A stretch of DNA of 64,000 nt from Pedococcus bigeumensis (GTDB lineage: Bacteria; Actinomycetota; Actinomycetes; Actinomycetales; Dermatophilaceae): contig NZ_RCZM01000007.1 of NCBI RefSeq assembly GCF_006438965.1, positions 1-64,000 of the forward strand, read 5' to 3'. Below are positions 5,459 through 32,483 of the stretch, in pieces. The stretch's first letter is position 1, and the number at the start of each line of letters is the position of its first letter. The translations under genes were made by a program, and so were the position numbers. The notes beneath the pieces were generated by a model. It did no database searches, was not told the DNA's origin, and was given only the letters and a program-made list of their open reading frames with translations.

Positions 5459-6522
5459 GCCGCCCTCCCCAGCCCCGTCGTGAGGTCAAGGTACTGAGCC
5501 AGGTAGGCGTCCACCATGACGTCGAGGGAGCAGTGCGACTCGGCGTGCTCGCGGCAACGCTGCCGATCCATGGCGCAGACCCGGTCGACCTCGGCGGCTG
5601 CGGCCAAGACATCACCGGGCGCCACGAGGGCACCGCAGTCCCCGGCCACGAACTCCGGCAGCCCGCCCCGGCGGAACCCCACGACCGGGGTGCCGCACGC
5701 GAGGGACTCGGCCGCGACGAGGCCGTAGGGCTCGTCCCACTCCGGCGTGACGACCATGGCGGCGCTCGACCCCACCAGGTCCCGCAGCGCGATCGCATCC
5801 AGGTGCCCCAGGTACTCAGCCCGAGGACCGAGAAGCGGCTCCACCTGCGAGCGGAAGTACTCGGCGTCGCCGACCGGTCCAGCGAGTCGAATCCTGCGGC
5901 CGCTCGCGGCAGCGATGCGGATCGCCTGGTGCGGCGCCTTCTCAGGGACCACCCGACCGACCCAGACGAGATCGGACCCACCGCGGCCTGGAGTCCACGC
6001 GGCAGTGTCCACGCCGTTGTGGAGGACGCCCGCGTTCGTCACGTGCTCCCACTGGTGCGCGGTATGGGCGCTGACCGCGACGAAGACGCTCCGCCTCTGG
6101 TCCATCAGGGCGATGGTCGGCTCGAGCCACGGCGTCGGGGGTGTGTGCAACGTCGTCAGCATCGGCGCACGGCAGGACTGCGCGAGGGCCAGCGGAAGGA
6201 AGTGGAGGCTGTTGTTGTGGATGACATCCACGTCGCGACGGTCCTTGAGCTCGAGCATGACCTGGAGGTAGGCGTGGTGCTCACGGAGCCAGGGCTCGGG
6301 CGGCATCGACGCGTCGCTCCGAGCCGCCTCACTGAGCTCAAGAGGAGCCACCGTCAACTCTCGAGCTCCCAGCGCCGGGTCGCTTCCAGACCCAGCGAAC
6401 AGCGTCACGTCGACGTTGCGCTCGCGCAGTCCCCGGACGAGCGCCCAGGTGAGCGACTCGAGGCCGCCCGCGAAGGGCTGCCGCAGGGGGTGCCGTGCCG
6501 CAGCGAGGATCACGACGTGCAT
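5455..6522 (-). CDS. Family 4 glycosyltransferase
   Basis: A 355-residue GT-B protein. The N-terminal domain has the glycine loop FAGGLESLTW. The C-terminal domain has the family 4 signature E-x7-E in WDEPYGLVAAESLACGTPVVG, where the glutamates contact the nucleotide sugar. It overlaps the next gene by ATGA and the preceding gene by 13 bases. The cassette position points to a shared surface glycan or glycolipid product (inference). Confidence 0.88.
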   Translation of the reverse strand: MHVVILAAARHPLRQPFAGGLESLTWALVRGLRERNVDVTLFAGSGSDPALGARELTVAPLELSEAARSDASMPPEPWLREHHAYLQVMLELKDRRDVDVIHNNSLHFLPLALAQSCRAPMLTTLHTPPTPWLEPTIALMDQRRSVFVAVSAHTAHQWEHVTNAGVLHNGVDTAAWTPGRGGSDLVWVGRVVPEKAPHQAIRIAAASGRRIRLAGPVGDAEYFRSQVEPLLGPRAEYLGHLDAIALRDLVGSSAAMVVTPEWDEPYGLVAAESLACGTPVVGFRRGGLPEFVAGDCGALVAPGDVLAAAAEVDRVCAMDRQRCREHAESHCSLDVMVDAYLAQYLDLTTGLGRAA

Positions 6523-7598
6523 GCGAGCCTGCGTTCCAAGACCTCTGCGTACAGCTCCGTGTGGGAGCGGGCGAGGGACGTTCGTTCGGTATGCCGGTCG
6601 GCCAGGTCAGCGCGCGGGGCGACCTCCCCGGCCAACCAGCGGGTGTGTGCGGTGCGCACCGCCTCGACGAGGGACGAGGCGCGCTCGGGCCCGGTCGCGG
6701 CATACGTCAGGCATGGGCGCTGCTCGGCGTAGAAGCCGCAGTCCGGCGCCGCGACCCACGTGCCAAGGTCGTGGCACGCCTCGAGCCAGCCCGAGTGGGT
6801 GCCGAACTGGTAGGGCAGTACCGACACGTCGAGATCGTGGAGGTAGTTCCACAGCTCGTCGTCCGAAAAGAAGTCGTGCACCCGCAGCTCGATCAGGTGG
6901 TGGTTGGCCAGGTCGTTGAGGTGGTCGGCGAATTCGATGTCGTGGCGCGGGAATCCAGCCGTCATGACGTCGGTGTGCGCGTCAACGCGCAGCCGGGCAC
7001 CCGGCATATCGGGAAGGGCGGCGGTGAGGGCGTCCACGAGCGGCAAAGGGTCCATGTTGGCGCGCAGGCTCTTCGCGTGCAGCCCGACAACGAACCCGTC
7101 GCGCTCGGGACGGGGCCGACCCAGCCACTCGTCAGGGACCACGTGCGGGTGGGGGAGGACGATCGCGTCCCGACCCCAACGAGTGCGGATCACCGAGGCA
7201 GCCCCGGGTGTGAGCGTGACGATGGCGTCGGCCGACGCCATCAGCACGTCGAGCTGGGAATCGTGCGTCGCTGCGGCGTCGTGGTGCGGGTTGCGCAGGT
7301 CGTGCACCGTCAGCACAAGGGGCTTGGCGTGCCGCCGCAGTGCTGCGGCGACGTCACGCAAGTGGTCGGGGGAGAGGGCGTCGAACCCGAAATGGATGTG
7401 CATGAGGTCGAAGTCGGCGGCGTGTTCGGCGATCCAGTCGGTCGTGAGCATCCGCGGCGGCCACCACGGCGAGTCCGGCGACGCGCCCGACGGGGGGTCG
7501 GGCAGGCGGACGACCGTGTCGCCTCCCGAGCCAGCGGAGGGCGAGAGGTGTCTGACGTAGACGTGGCCGGAAGGGATCGAGGCGACAACGATGCTCAA
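6510..7598 (-). CDS. Glycosyltransferase (GT4-like GT-B), first gene of the cassette
   Basis: A 362-residue protein with a GT-B layout: an N-terminal domain with DLMHIHFGFD and VLTVHDLRNP, and a C-terminal domain with VSVLPYQFGTHSGW. It lacks the clean E-x7-E motif of its neighbour, so the family assignment is looser. The best start is TTG at 7598, which has AAAGG seven bases upstream. As the first gene, its roughly 230-base upstream gap should hold the promoter for all four genes, though I see no clear -35/-10 pair. Confidence 0.75.
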   Translation of the reverse strand: MSIVVASIPSGHVYVRHLSPSAGSGGDTVVRLPDPPSGASPDSPWWPPRMLTTDWIAEHAADFDLMHIHFGFDALSPDHLRDVAAALRRHAKPLVLTVHDLRNPHHDAAATHDSQLDVLMASADAIVTLTPGAASVIRTRWGRDAIVLPHPHVVPDEWLGRPRPERDGFVVGLHAKSLRANMDPLPLVDALTAALPDMPGARLRVDAHTDVMTAGFPRHDIEFADHLNDLANHHLIELRVHDFFSDDELWNYLHDLDVSVLPYQFGTHSGWLEACHDLGTWVAAPDCGFYAEQRPCLTYAATGPERASSLVEAVRTAHTRWLAGEVAPRADLADRHTERTSLARSHTELYAEVLERRLACTS

Positions 7599-12027: not shown

Positions 12028-12534
12028 ATGACGAAGAAACTGATCCTCACCATGACGTCCGCTGCCGCACTGACGGTCGCCACGCTCGTCCTGGCGCCAT
12101 CGTCGGCACAGGCCGCCACCCCCCGCTGCACCAACGCCAAGCTGGCGGCGAGCCTCGTCAACGTCCAGGGCGCCGCCGGCAGCCGGATCGGCGACCTGCG
12201 CCTGACGAACATCAGCCGGGGCCAGTGCTGGACGCGGGGCTACCCGGGTGTCTCGTATGTCGGCTTGGGCAACGGCACCCAGATCGGACGCGCGGCTACC
12301 TGGGACGCCGGCGCGGTCACGACGATCACCTTGGCACCCAGGCAGCACGCCGACGCGCCGATCCGCCTGGTCAACGTGCACAACTATGCCGCCTCCGTAT
12401 GCCGTCCCACGCCAGTGGACGGACTGCGCGTCTACGTGCCCGGCTCCACGCTCGCGAAGTTCATCCCCTACCGGACGACGGGCTGCCGGTCCACGAGTAT
12501 CACGACGCTCTTCGTCAAGCCGCTGGCCCGCTAG
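12028..12534 (+). CDS. Secreted DUF4232 domain protein
   Basis: A 168-residue exported protein. The signal peptide runs MTKKLILTM to an AQA cleavage site near residue 30, and the mature part matches the actinobacterial DUF4232 pattern (a C-T-N-A-K-L start, GDLRLTNISRGQC, GYPGVSYVG). Conserved cysteines (CTNAK, QCW, VCRP, GCRS) could form two disulphides outside the cell. The start is ATG 12028 because the signal peptide begins there; earlier codons are not protein-like. Function of the family is not known. Confidence 0.85.
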   Translation: MTKKLILTMTSAAALTVATLVLAPSSAQAATPRCTNAKLAASLVNVQGAAGSRIGDLRLTNISRGQCWTRGYPGVSYVGLGNGTQIGRAATWDAGAVTTITLAPRQHADAPIRLVNVHNYAASVCRPTPVDGLRVYVPGSTLAKFIPYRTTGCRSTSITTLFVKPLAR

Positions 12535-12601: not shown

Positions 12602-15600
12602 TCAGCCGTTGGCTGAGCGAGAGCCTCGCTTGGTGGCCGACTTGGTGGCTCGCTTGCCCGCGGCTTCGGCGGACTTGGCGGCCGCCTTGGTGGCCCGCTT
12701 CTTCGGTGGTTTGAGTGGCGGAAGGCCTGGGATGGGGAACTGCGGACGGTGCTCGTGCCCGCCCATCTGGTGGTGTGAGCCGACGATGATCTTGGGTGGG
12801 GCGAGCGGGAGCCGGTCGAGGTGGACCCACAGGGCGACAGAAGGGATGTCGCAGTCATCGACGACGAAGAGCAGGTACCACCCGGGTGGCGCGAGGTTGG
12901 GGTTGTCGGTGACCTCGACGGTGAGGCTGCAGGCGTCGCGGCACACGATGGGCAGGTCGACGAGGCGCTGGCTGGTGTCGGCGGAGTGGGTGGTGGCCAT
13001 GGGGCGCACCAGATGGGCCCACTTCACGGTCATGGACGACGGGGTGCTCACCTCGACCGTGGTGCCATACCGCCACTCGGTCGGCGCGGAGTCCAGCACC
13101 GGCCGCGGTCCCCGGAACAGGTAGGGCGGGTGGTAGAGCTCGAGCCGCAGCTCGTCGTCGCCGCGGTCCGGGTTGGACCCAGCCGTGACCACGCGGCCGT
13201 CGGGGAGCAGCAGGGCGATGGAGTGGTAGAGCCGGGACACGGTCGCCTCGGCAACGGACCGCATGGTGTTGGTGGCCGGGTCGTAGATCTCGGCGAGTTG
13301 TACGGCGTCGGCCCTGGTCTCACCGTGCAGACCACCTCCGGTGACCAGGACGGTCCGGTCGGGAAGGATCACCGAGTTGCAGAGCCCACGCGCCTTGGCC
13401 AGGTCGGGGCCGGGGTGGAAGGCCGCCCCGCCCGGTCCGGAGGACAGGTCGATGATGTCGGTGCGCTTGGTGGACGAGGGGGCGCCGCCTCCGCCGATGA
13501 CCATGACCCGCTGGGCCTGGGCGGGTGGCAGCAGGATGCTGCTGCCCTGGTCCCTCTTGGCCTTGTCGCGCAGCCCGGACACGGTCTGCTCGGCTCCCGT
13601 GAACGGGTTGATGGCGCGACCTTCGACGGTGGCGTTGCCCAGCTGACCGCCGGTGTAGAACAGGTGGCCGTCCTTCAGGAGCAGCAGGTGCGGGTAGAGC
13701 GGGAGGCTGGTGGTGTTCGGCAGCGGGCGCCACCCGATGGCAGGGTCGAAGACCTCGTTGGGCGCCTGGATGCCGGAGCTGACGACGGCTCGGCCGTCGC
13801 CCATGGTCACGAGGGTGGGGTACCAGCGGTGGGCGTCCATGTCGTCCACGCGGATCCATTGCCGCAGCTGCGGGTCGAACAGGTAGGTGGCCTGTGAGCC
13901 GACGAAGTCGTCGTACTTGTCCGTGCCGCCGGCCACGAGCACCTTGCCGTCGGAGAGCACGGTCTGACTGGAGCAGAACACGTCGAAGGGGCAGCCAGGG
14001 TCGTAGAAGGTGCCCTCCTGGTAGTCCCACACGACGCTCCTGACGAGGTGCGCGTTGAAGTTGGGGACGTTGTTGCCGGAGCCGGCAAAGAAGAGCACCT
14101 GTCCGGTGTGCATGAGGACGGCGTGGACCGCCAGGACGTGGGAGTCGACGGGCAGCAGCTCCCAGTAGCCGGTGTCGGCCAGGTCGCACACGTCGATCGG
14201 CCGCGCGTCCGGCATACCGGGCATGGTCATGACTGGCATGGCGGGCACTCCCGGCGTACCCGCGGTGGGCGTCACCGGACCGTGCAGAGGCAGGTGCATC
14301 GCGTCCGTGAGTGCGTCCCGGGCGAGGCCTGTCGTGCTGGCGCGGGCCGCGCTCCGTGCGGGATGCAGATGCCCCGGACCGGTCTGGTGTCCGTCGTCCG
14401 TGGCGTCGCCGGGGCCATGGTCGTCGGCTCCGTCGTCGCCGGCGCCGTGGCCGTGGCGGCCCCCGTGGGTGTGGTGCCCGCCGACGCGTTCGCACACCTC
14501 GCACGGCTCCGCCGCATCGTGGCCGCAGCAGCGTCCGGTGCCGTGGTCGTGTCCGCAGCACCGCCCGCCGGGCTTGCCCGGCGGGTGGGCATGGTCGTGC
14601 GGGCACTGCTTGGGGTCACAGTCGGTGCCGTCATGGGCGGTGACCCCGTGGTGGCGGGCCGGGTGGCCGGGGTGGTCATCGTCGTCCTCGGGTATGCCGC
14701 AGCACGGGTTGTGCGGCTTGGTGTGCGTGTGCGGGTGGTCGTGGTCGCCGGTGGCACAGTCGCCGCACCGGACCAGGTCGACCCAGTCGAGGTCGTTGCG
14801 CCCGTCGTCCAGTGGCAGCCTCAGGTCCGACGACCAAGCTGTCTTGGGATCGACCCAGACCCAGTCGCGGGCGCGAACCAGGCCGGCGAGGCCGGCCATC
14901 ATGTGCTCCTCGAGGTGGCAATGGAACAGGAAGTCGCCCTTCACCCGCACCCGGCAGGCGTCGTCCGGGGGGTCGCACTGCAGGTCCTGGAGCTCGCACG
15001 GCAGGCGCAGGGCAGCAGGCACGATGGTGTCGGCGGTGAACCCCTCGGCCGGGCTCAGGCCGTGCACGTCGGCCGCGCCGGCCGGGGGTGCGGGGAGCGC
15101 CCACCGGGCTGAGTGCGGGTGGAAGTTGTGCCACACGGATCCGAGGTCGAGGTTGACGACGTGCCACCGCAACCGCTGCCCGCTGTGTGCCTCGATGGTG
15201 GGAGTGTTGCCGACGAACGCGCGACCGTTGAGGCAGTAGGTCAGCGCGCCACCGCCGGGAGCGAGCACGATGTGGTCGAAGTTCTGCGCCAGCGTCCAGA
15301 TGACTTTCTTGCCCGGGCGGACGGACACGGCCTGCGGGACGAAGCTGTTGTCGTGGATGTCGACGGTGCGGTCCCCAGCAGGGGCTCCGGGGTCGACAGT
15401 GACCGTCCCGGACATCGTGGGCCCGTGGATCTTGCAGTGGTAGGCCACCACCCCGGCAGTCGTGAACGTGTGCTCGAAGGTCTGCATCGGCGTTGCCTTG
15501 TGCAGCACCGGGCTCTCGAAGGAGTCAGCTATGCTGGGCGCCTGCATGGCGTGCAGGAACATCGGGACGTCCAGCGCACGCGGCGCTGCGGGGTTGCGCA

Positions 15601-16174
15601 CGACCAGGGCGCCGAACAACCCGCGGTTGACGTTGGCCTGCACCATGTGGGTGTGGTCGTGGAAGGCCCACACCCCGACGGTCTCCTCGGTGACGTCGAA
15701 GCTGTAGGTCCAGCTCTGCCCCGGGAGGATCTCGTCGCTGCGCAGGCCACGGCGAGTGCCGACCCCGAACGGCCACGCGCCGTCTGAGTCGATGCCGTAC
15801 TTCACCCCGTGGACGTGCAGGCTGTGGCAGTCGTTGTCGGCGTTGAGCACGTGGATGTACAGCTGCTCGCCCGGTTCGGCATACAGGACAGCGCCGGGGA
15901 CCCTGCGGTACCACGGCGGCTCGTTGACGTCGGCCTCGACGAGCTTGGCGGTGTTCGGCGTCGTGTAGTGGTCGTCGAGGTACTCCCGGTAGACGAGGGC
16001 GTTGACCGTGGTGGCGGCGATCTCGGTGGGCTGGACGCGGCCTGTCTCGTGACCCATGCCGTACATGGCGTCGCGCCCGTACCTTCGGCTGCCGGCCACC
16101 GGAGCCAGCGGGCTGTACCCGCCCAGGGGTTCGATCTTCAGAAAGATGTCCCGTCGACGCAGACCTTCGGACAT
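12602..16174 (-). CDS. Fusion of multicopper oxidase and galactose/glyoxal-oxidase-like copper-radical oxidase
   Basis: A 1,190-residue protein; the start at 16174 has GGAGG just upstream. Residues about 1-445 are a multicopper oxidase with its four copper motifs: HSLHVHG (117-122), FHDHTH (171-176), HNFHPHS (349-355) and FHCHLEEHMM (417-426). A linker (about 470-605) holds about 25 His and 12 Cys. Residues about 660-1130 are a kelch propeller plus C-terminal E-set domain. They hold every galactose-oxidase active-site residue: Cys734 (FCSSQ), Tyr785 (HRWYPT), Tyr983-His984 (LYHSI) and His1063 (TTHSADTSQ). The last 30 residues are a Lys/Ala-rich tail. I see no signal peptide or Tat motif. Substrates are unknown. 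Confidence 0.88.
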   Translation of the reverse strand: MSEGLRRRDIFLKIEPLGGYSPLAPVAGSRRYGRDAMYGMGHETGRVQPTEIAATTVNALVYREYLDDHYTTPNTAKLVEADVNEPPWYRRVPGAVLYAEPGEQLYIHVLNADNDCHSLHVHGVKYGIDSDGAWPFGVGTRRGLRSDEILPGQSWTYSFDVTEETVGVWAFHDHTHMVQANVNRGLFGALVVRNPAAPRALDVPMFLHAMQAPSIADSFESPVLHKATPMQTFEHTFTTAGVVAYHCKIHGPTMSGTVTVDPGAPAGDRTVDIHDNSFVPQAVSVRPGKKVIWTLAQNFDHIVLAPGGGALTYCLNGRAFVGNTPTIEAHSGQRLRWHVVNLDLGSVWHNFHPHSARWALPAPPAGAADVHGLSPAEGFTADTIVPAALRLPCELQDLQCDPPDDACRVRVKGDFLFHCHLEEHMMAGLAGLVRARDWVWVDPKTAWSSDLRLPLDDGRNDLDWVDLVRCGDCATGDHDHPHTHTKPHNPCCGIPEDDDDHPGHPARHHGVTAHDGTDCDPKQCPHDHAHPPGKPGGRCCGHDHGTGRCCGHDAAEPCEVCERVGGHHTHGGRHGHGAGDDGADDHGPGDATDDGHQTGPGHLHPARSAARASTTGLARDALTDAMHLPLHGPVTPTAGTPGVPAMPVMTMPGMPDARPIDVCDLADTGYWELLPVDSHVLAVHAVLMHTGQVLFFAGSGNNVPNFNAHLVRSVVWDYQEGTFYDPGCPFDVFCSSQTVLSDGKVLVAGGTDKYDDFVGSQATYLFDPQLRQWIRVDDMDAHRWYPTLVTMGDGRAVVSSGIQAPNEVFDPAIGWRPLPNTTSLPLYPHLLLLKDGHLFYTGGQLGNATVEGRAINPFTGAEQTVSGLRDKAKRDQGSSILLPPAQAQRVMVIGGGGAPSSTKRTDIIDLSSGPGGAAFHPGPDLAKARGLCNSVILPDRTVLVTGGGLHGETRADAVQLAEIYDPATNTMRSVAEATVSRLYHSIALLLPDGRVVTAGSNPDRGDDELRLELYHPPYLFRGPRPVLDSAPTEWRYGTTVEVSTPSSMTVKWAHLVRPMATTHSADTSQRLVDLPIVCRDACSLTVEVTDNPNLAPPGWYLLFVVDDCDIPSVALWVHLDRLPLAPPKIIVGSHHQMGGHEHRPQFPIPGLPPLKPPKKRATKAAAKSAEAAGKRATKSATKRGSRSANG

Positions 16175-16332
16175 GGCGCCCTCCTGTTCCATCGGCCGCC
16201 CACTGCGCAACAACGGCTGCGTTTAGGCGAAATTCACCCTATTGGCGCCGAGTTGCAGCTGGGATCCACCGTTTGCAGTAGATGACTGCGGACCCACGGG
16301 AATGGCGCCCGGGCCCCTTGTGGAGCGCCCGA

Positions 16333-26337: not shown

Positions 26338-31857
<5,520 letters not shown>

Positions 31858-31862
31858 GCTCA

Positions 31863-32483
31863 CTGCGCCCGCCCAGTTCGCCCAGCCGGCTCACCCCACC
31901 CGCGGGACTCCTGCTCGCGGCTGGGGGCGGGAGCCGGATGGGCATGGCCAAGGCGCTGGTCGACGACCCCGGCGGTGGCTCGTTCGTCGAGCGGGGGGTC
32001 AGGGTGCTTCGTGACGGTGGCTGCTCGCCCGTCGTCGTGGTGGTGGGCGCCGAAGCGGAGCGCGCCACGGCGTTGGCGAACGGTGCCGGTGCCGACCTCG
32101 TCGTCGAGGCGAGCGACTGGGCGAGCGGCCAGAGCGCATCGCTGCGCCGGGGCATCGAAGCCCTGCAGACCACTGGAGCCAACGTGGTCTGCGTCCTCCT
32201 CGTCGACCTCCCCGACGTGGGCGCCGACGTGGCCGCGGCTGTGCTCGGGGCCGCGGGTGACGGACCCGCCGCCCTGGGGCGGGCGGCATACCAGGGGGTG
32301 CCCGGTCACCCCGTCGTGATCGGTCGCGACCACTGGGCGGCGATCCGCGACGAGGCGACCGGTGACCGTGGCGCGCGCGACTACCTCGCGTCCCACCCGC
32401 ACGCCAGCGTCGAGGTCGGTCACCTCGCGTCCGGCCGCGATGCCGACACCCCCGACGACCTGCGCACCCCCCACGACCGCTGA
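31863..32483 (+). CDS. MobA-like molybdenum-cofactor nucleotidyltransferase of the cox cluster
   Basis: A nucleotidyltransferase for the pyranopterin cofactor (MobA/MocA type). The signature GLLLAAGGGSRMG-x-AKAL lies at 31900-31950, and a VLLVDLPDVG motif and QGVPGHPVVIG follow. That signature begins upstream of the first ATG (31938), and no ATG, GTG or TTG precedes it in frame. I therefore propose CTG 31863, or CTG 31854 overlapping the carboxylase stop; starting at 31938 would remove the nucleotide-binding loop. Product about 206 residues. It probably makes the cytosine-dinucleotide form of Moco used by CoxL. Confidence 0.7.
   Translation: MRPPSSPSRLTPPAGLLLAAGGGSRMGMAKALVDDPGGGSFVERGVRVLRDGGCSPVVVVVGAEAERATALANGAGADLVVEASDWASGQSASLRRGIEALQTTGANVVCVLLVDLPDVGADVAAAVLGAAGDGPAALGRAAYQGVPGHPVVIGRDHWAAIRDEATGDRGARDYLASHPHASVEVGHLASGRDADTPDDLRTPHDR

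Follow-up and report, generated by a model that had tools for sequence, protein, structure and literature searches.

A predicted fusion of a laccase-like multicopper oxidase, carrying an inserted permuted cupredoxin, with a GlxA-like copper-radical oxidase in Pedococcus bigeumensis

We analyzed a 64,000-nucleotide stretch of the Pedococcus bigeumensis genome (assembly GCF_006438965.1, contig NZ_RCZM01000007.1, positions 1 to 64,000; hereafter the window), in which the minus strand of positions 12602-16174 carries one unbroken open reading frame (ORF) of 1190 amino acids plus a stop. Its ATG lies at 16174 and its stop ends at 12602. A Shine-Dalgarno sequence, AGGAGG, read by eye on the minus strand at 16180-16185 (plus-strand coordinates), is located 5 nucleotides 5' of the ATG and supports the start at 16174; an alternative TTG start is found 39 bases upstream of the ATG, and no hydrophobic leader is gained by using it. 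Searches of Pfam, NCBIfam and the Protein Data Bank (PDB) assigned the N-terminal half to a multicopper oxidase (MCO) and the C-terminal half to a copper-radical oxidase (CRO). Pfam matches over cut-off were Cu-oxidase_3 (residues 91-196), Cu-oxidase_2 (412-434), Glyoxal_oxid_N (711-840; 39.3 bits against a cut-off of 37.5), Kelch_6 and GO-like_E_set (1024-1118). We read the gene as encoding a single intact fusion of a laccase-like MCO with a copper-radical alcohol or aldehyde oxidase, both active sites being complete. The first-pass annotation of this DNA had proposed the joining of these two enzymes in one chain, which the unbroken frame and the Pfam matches for both halves bear out, and had called for a search for homologous fusions.

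Five more fusion proteins were found by such a search, two in Pedococcus and one each in Actinoplanes, Arthrobacter and Amycolatopsis, making six with that of the window, to which they are 85, 79, 78, 74 and 54% identical. No copper ligand of either half varies among the six proteins, even at 54% identity. The ratio of nonsynonymous to synonymous substitution rates (dN/dS) is 0.05-0.20 over both halves and an inserted domain (see below) in the four closer pairs of fusions; the Amycolatopsis pair (L015; 0.20-0.80), being distant and codon-biased, was excluded from the evidence of constraint. The same annotation had named a sequence error joining two separate genes as what would overturn the fusion. 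A sequencing or assembly fusion of this kind was ruled out as vanishingly improbable: the frame contains no stop, the same in-frame junction recurs in six proteins from four genera and separate assemblies, and nothing was found in its favor.

The distribution of the fusion was examined in genome samples that are overlapping subsets. Of 11 Pedococcus genomes, counting the window's own, 3 have it, and it is limited to these same three in a family sample of 149 genomes. The window's own genome gave the only whole-length match in a class sample of 394 genomes (profile search) and in phylum samples of 396 (whole-protein search at E up to 1e-60, and a profile of the MCO half), where the other 16 genomes matching in the whole-protein search carry the CRO half alone. 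A scan of 84,980 species genomes with 6 exact peptide patterns, which detects close relatives only and may omit genomes very near the window's, gave 10 candidate stretches; the 4 confirmed belong to Pedococcus sp. 5OH_020, Actinoplanes aureus, Arthrobacter sp. H35-D1 and Amycolatopsis vastitatis. Of the 39 plasmid records that matched, not one reached 80% coverage of the query. We regard the fusion as real, and as rare.

Domain 1 of the MCO half (residues 1-200; 15575-16174, minus strand as for all parts of the gene) contains the first strand RRDIFLKIEP and the motifs HVH (120/122) and HDH (172/174), and was delimited by Cu-oxidase_3, alignment and a structural model. Domain 2 opens with the strand DVPMFLHAM (residues 201-211; 15542-15574), assigned by alignment with two-domain MCOs and present as a strand in the model, and resumes at residues 312-440 (14855-15241; Pfam, alignments) with HNFHPH (349/352/354) and HCHLEEHMMAGL (418-429), which ends on the axial Leu429. 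Ten His and one Cys in four motifs provide the type-1 site and the trinuclear cluster, and these ligands (H120, H122, H172, H174, H349, H352, H354, H418, C419, H420 and H424) are invariant in all 24 rows of an alignment of the six fusions with 18 two-domain relatives. The relatives were picked by length and motif pattern from scored frames, leaving out L062, longer MCOs and MCOs whose Cys motif is in domain 1. The type-1 site lies in domain 2 (HCHLEEH) and domain 1 has no HCH-type motif, an arrangement of type-B two-domain enzymes; the 11 relatives ranked highest by whole-frame profile score (L053-L061, L065, L066) likewise have two domains and carry the Cys motif in the second. We assign the MCO half as a two-domain, type-B-like oxidase with an extra inserted domain and, reasoning from type-B two-domain MCOs, consider that it may be active as a trimer. 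An AlphaFold2 monomer model of this half, made from the 24 rows, has a mean predicted local distance difference test score (pLDDT) of 75, and in domain 1 blocks of ten residues score 80-97 for residues 61-200, except 131-150 (59-64). Foldseek with this model returned factor V chains, ceruloplasmin chains and two-domain laccases. Nearly all of the two-domain laccase matches shown had TM-scores of 0.66-0.74, normalized by the laccase, with root-mean-square deviations of 8-13 over long-gap alignments.

At the type-1 axial position, Leu429 is found in all six fusions and Met in all 18 aligned two-domain relatives, so that the axial Met of type-B MCOs is absent in the fusions; the relative L105 has Met with a loop two residues longer. 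The reverse change in a Botrytis laccase, L499M, dropped the type-1 potential by 140 mV (PMC4220974), and the 537 mV of a Met-ligated type-B MCO is said to be below that of sites without an axial Met (PMC13151041). Given these values, Leu in place of Met predicts a higher potential for the fusion's type-1 copper, which would make it a stronger oxidant.

The first strand of domain 2 (VPMFLHAM) and the strand after it (YCLNGRAF) are separated in the fusions by a block of 97-100 letters (residues 212-311; 15242-15541), compared with 0-34 in the 18 two-domain relatives. This feature, missing from the first-pass annotation, changes the likely function of the N-terminal half. Profile, PF00127 matches, alignment and model together point to a circularly permuted blue-copper cupredoxin, in which the C-terminal half (C247, H250, M254) precedes the N-terminal half (H301). 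A profile made from six separate cupredoxins adjoining the relatives' MCOs, whose E-values refer to six sequences only, matches all six fusions as a C-half (model positions 52-96) and then an N-half (8-61). Positions 65-98 of Copper-bind (PF00127) fall on residues 228-260 of the whole window protein. Used as an isolated segment, the insert matches Copper-bind in two stretches, at 28.3 bits against a cut-off of 21.2, in the window and Amycolatopsis proteins, the best stretch covering positions 65-98 and 60-98, respectively. Taken alone, the N-half of the Amycolatopsis insert gave a weak Copper-bind match (6-38; E 0.095) and that of the window insert none. C247, H250, M254 and H301, which we take to be the blue-copper ligands following the plastocyanin-type pattern, are invariant in the six fusions, and the model of the MCO half has eight strands between 232 and 305. 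To judge from these alignments the insert is a whole cupredoxin domain with His, Cys, His and Met ligands in permuted order, and we infer that it binds copper.

A plastocyanin-like frame lies within about 140 nucleotides of the MCO frame in 6 of the 11 best two-domain relatives, where flanks of about 1.5 kb were examined; the other 5 show no cupredoxin frame within the flank examined. In the fusions a cupredoxin is located inside the MCO, as would be expected of an electron relay. The six loci with a directly adjoining frame are L057, L058, L060, L061, L065 and L066, the last having one on each side. Three loci in other Pedococcus genomes (L006, L007, L008) show a leader-like start followed by two cupredoxin-like units in tandem, and tandem cupredoxins of this sort are a plausible route to a permuted one.

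The CRO half (residues 661-1120; 12815-14194) was delimited by Pfam, NCBIfam and PDB searches and by alignments. The Glyoxal_oxid_N, Kelch_6 and GO-like_E_set matches over cut-off correspond to a Kelch-type propeller followed by an E-set domain. C734, W784, Y785, Y983, H984 and H1063 are invariant in the six fusions and align with those of GlxA (PDB 4unm), and all except W784 align with those of a galactose oxidase. They provide the residues of the Cys-Tyr pair (the cross-link itself being predicted), the axial Tyr, two His copper ligands and a stacking Trp. As to the active sites, the first-pass annotation holds on both counts: the four MCO motifs are intact in all 24 rows, and none of the galactose-oxidase residues whose loss it had said would refute it (C734, Y785, Y983, H984, H1063) is missing. 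The Trp stands directly before the cross-link Tyr785, the GlxA arrangement, and the aligned galactose oxidase has no Trp there, which sets this half apart from galactose oxidase proper. Galactose oxidase's own stacking Trp sits at a different place. The best solved relative of the CRO is PDB 4unm (E 5.1e-81 for the complete protein and 1.7e-82 for the isolated CRO part), and the score against the GlxA equivalog NF052501 is 387.5 bits at a cut-off of 800, which makes this half, as read here, GlxA-like and not GlxA.

The two enzymes are joined by a His/Cys-rich linker (residues 458-600; 14375-14803; residue counts, alignment) with a Met-rich end (residues 601-660; 14195-14374; alignment), in which MPGM at 651-654 is present in all six fusions. 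Where about 25 His and 12 Cys in 130 residues had been noted before, we counted 23 His and 12 Cys at residues 470-600, which supports a linker of metal-binding type. Their combined content, 35 per 130 residues, is the highest of 141 stop-to-stop frames of at least 200 amino acids in the window, the next being 24. Among the five long-linker proteins, 27 of 40 Cys and His positions at residues 458-670 are identical, compared with 33 of 173 other residues (Fisher p 7e-9); by residue type, the identical positions are 12 of the 13 Cys and 15 of the 27 His. The dN/dS of the linker in the four pairs is 0.16-0.32 (458-600) and 0.23-0.57 (601-660), a constraint weaker than that in the domains. The Amycolatopsis linker is 58 residues long and has a Met-rich stretch, 1 His and 3 Cys, which indicates that the architecture can do without the His/Cys part. 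Most likely the linker holds copper besides giving reach; the suggestion in the first-pass annotation that it might pass copper from one enzyme to the other is not the interpretation that we prefer.

Such a linker raises the possibility that the protein serves copper handling, with the MCO acting as a cuprous oxidase, the His/Cys/Met linker as a copper buffer, and the CRO as a copper-dependent passenger or as an enzyme metallated by the linker, so that the cell would be protected from Cu(I). The selective conservation of linker Cys and His in five proteins and of MPGM in six fits this proposal, as does the lack of a signal peptide, through which the protein would meet cytosolic Cu(I). We nevertheless regard it as unlikely, since no copper-resistance genes are found among the scanned neighbors, nearly all of the His/Cys part is gone from the Amycolatopsis fusion, and a complete radical-oxidase site kept under selection would be left unexplained.

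Regarding the two ends of the protein, both the absence of a signal peptide and the Lys/Ala-rich tail had been remarked on in the earlier annotation. Hydropathy supports the former, as no signal peptide was found by it in any of the six fusions (no dedicated predictor was run): the best 15-residue mean within the first 60 residues is 0.59-1.04 in the fusions, against 1.67-2.61 upstream of domain 1 in 11 two-domain relatives. The tail (residues 1121-1190; 12605-12814) does end in Lys and Ala; it is variable in the alignment, with dN/dS of 0.25-0.84 in the four pairs, and its poor conservation means that it is not a shared feature. Export by an unrecognized route or by leaderless release, with the protein acting as a surface laccase or CRO like CotA or GlxA, appears distinctly improbable. 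CotA is a leaderless spore-coat laccase. A hydrophobic leader is present in each of the 11 two-domain relatives examined, seven of which have RRxF[LV], and GlxA is located at the cell surface (PMC3543389), which would suit an exported protein; against this, the N-terminus of the fusion forms the first beta strand of domain 1 (6-20 in the model), which by eye corresponds to REYWIEA in the relatives, and a hydrophobic core is missing there in all six. Tat (twin-arginine translocation) export was likewise rejected, because RRRDIF fits just the RR part of the Tat motif and is absent in Amycolatopsis.

In a tree of 31 hand-picked CRO domains (left out were duplicate loci and L020, L021, L023, L024, L025, L036 and L044), the six fusions group together with support of 87/87, and 86% of bootstrap trees require one change only. 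They fall within a group of ten (99/94) that also holds the CROs with FG-GAP-like repeats L016 and L027, the Nostoc plasmid CRO L026, and L032, the fork separating L032 being weak (85/54); the fusion group lies apart from Streptomyces GlxA-like rows. The actinobacterial CROs L016 and L027 have FG-GAP/VCBS-like repeats ahead of them (VPDWF...GAGIAVADLTGDG); L016 has no evident signal peptide, and the L027 frame runs off its locus with the start outside view. At L025, on plasmid pC052_B of Nostoc sp. C052, the annotation divides a close CRO relative (5914-7432) between two overlapping genes, in the manner of a frameshift. In identity to the window protein, the Actinoplanes fusion (78%) nearly equals the one from Pedococcus sp. 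5OH_020 (79%), and within Pedococcus the fusion gene occupies different places, the flanks of the window gene lying away from the fusion gene in G002 and G009. Together these suggest that the fusion gene has moved horizontally.

Just downstream of the fusion gene, the window encodes a DUF4232 protein (12028-12531, plus strand), and DNA relatives of this gene in G002, G005 and G009 sit away from any fusion gene. Neighbors were scanned in the window, L012, L046 and L013; they have no family in common, and for two of these four no family was returned. Neighbors of L014 and L015 were listed outside the family scan. An operon or copper-island context was rejected, given the lack of a Pfam family common to the scanned neighbors and the different flanks in G002 and G009. 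The lack of a shared neighbor among the scanned loci argues that the fusion protein probably works alone. Elsewhere in the window, very long frames overlap on opposite strands at 26338-31857 (plus) and 27409-31863 (minus), of 1839 and 1484 amino acids, and by codon composition the plus frame looks like the gene.

As each half has its full set of catalytic residues, the two might be independent oxidases of one pathway, in which the CRO turns over an alcohol or aldehyde with production of H2O2, the MCO oxidizes a phenol or other donor, and the tether only co-localizes them for cell-wall, glycan or secondary-metabolite chemistry. Related CROs have other N-terminal partners, such as FG-GAP-like repeats, and GlxA is required for aerial development in Streptomyces coelicolor (PMC3543389) and is reported to be required for glycan deposition in S. 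lividans. We consider such independence rather doubtful, because it leaves both the permuted cupredoxin inside the MCO and the axial Leu unexplained, and because GlxA has a signal peptide and acts at the cell surface (PMC3543389), whereas the fusion has no export signal.

Several CROs need a peroxidase or strong oxidants in the laboratory. Glyoxal oxidase and galactose oxidase are inactivated on purification and require a strong oxidant or redox activator (PMC10928124), and a fungal copper-radical alcohol oxidase is activated by a partner peroxidase, where electron paramagnetic resonance supports a one-electron oxidation without substrate (PMC9770985). By analogy, we propose, with a probability of roughly 40%, that the MCO and its cupredoxin act together as an internal, O2-driven activase by which the CRO's Cys-Tyr radical is formed or restored. 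The resting CRO would lack this radical and need a one-electron oxidation for activity. The electron would be accepted by the inserted blue copper, by the type-1 copper with its axial Leu and high potential, or by both, and would pass to the trinuclear cluster, where O2 would be reduced to water. O2 alone could then activate or reactivate the enzyme, a separate peroxidase and H2O2 not being needed, and the activated CRO would oxidize an alcohol or aldehyde and yield H2O2. In its complete form, the proposal pictures a self-activating six-copper chain, probably trimeric, in which a laccase unit with a permuted blue-copper relay draws electrons from the Cys-Tyr-Cu(II) site, the radical thus being both made and restored inside the cell by O2 alone; we offer this full picture tentatively, as possible rather than probable.

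Several points weigh against the activase proposal, and much of what was observed could also be accounted for by copper handling through the MCO and linker or by two separate activities on the chain. The role given to the MCO and cupredoxin is our inference. The protein seems to be cytosolic, where a CRO is not expected to work, and MtGLOx is reported to be fully active with no activator needed (PMC10928124). The type-1 copper of type-B trimers faces a central tunnel, which could hinder contact with the CRO (PMC13151041), and a full-length structure prediction from the 6-row alignment has a pLDDT of 32.5 and gives no distance between the MCO and CRO coppers. As for the insert, Copper-bind in the whole window protein scores 20.8 bits, just below the cut-off of 21.2, and the insert's ligand loop is C-x2-H-x3-M, compared with C-x2-H-x2-M in 4 of the 6 neighbor cupredoxins, Met being absent in the other 2. 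An axial Leu also occurs in 6 of 18 left-out MCO frames with a C-terminal HCH motif, the six being longer frames of 505-753 amino acids, and Met in the other 12; on these counts the Leu departs from the fusions' nearest kin, yet is not unique to the fusions. Finally, the His/Cys part of the linker is found in five of the six fusions and is not universal.

Each part of the protein comes from a known family; neither such a fusion nor such a permuted cupredoxin was found, by title or shown abstract, in searches of the open-licence PMC literature, and their combination was not found in print there. With an O2-reducing copper enzyme naturally fused to a CRO, the activation step could be tested in one purified protein, and the axial Leu offers a ready test of potential tuning. 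As CROs that work without an added activator are wanted as biocatalysts, the fusion could also be useful. The cupredoxin within a two-domain MCO would in addition be a clear case of domain insertion with permutation.

Among known systems, Streptomyces GlxA (PDB 4unm, NF052501) resembles the fusion CRO in its Cys, Trp-Tyr, Tyr-His and His residues and in the Trp just before the cross-link Tyr; the fusion CRO differs in falling below the equivalog cut-off, in having no signal or anchor, and in the MCO ahead of it. With type-B two-domain MCOs (small laccases such as Ssl1, 4m3h, and CjMCO), the fusion shares the order of domains 1 and 2, the ligand pattern and the domain-2 type-1 site, whereas it has a permuted cupredoxin in domain 2, an axial Leu for Met, no export signal and a C-terminal CRO. 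The fungal Tandem Peroxidase-Alcohol oxidase pair (PMC9770985) likewise combines a CRO with a dedicated redox partner and a proposed activation by one-electron oxidation. That pair consists of two secreted proteins with a haem peroxidase as partner, and the fusion of one chain with a copper oxidase that would use O2. Copper nitrite reductases linked to redox partners (PMC9358711) are like the fusion in tethering the partner to the copper enzyme, and in three-domain copper nitrite reductases the tethered partner is a cupredoxin (PMC6278305). In contrast to the tethered partner of those enzymes, the predicted cupredoxin of the fusion is inserted and permuted, and its acceptor would be an O2-reducing cluster.

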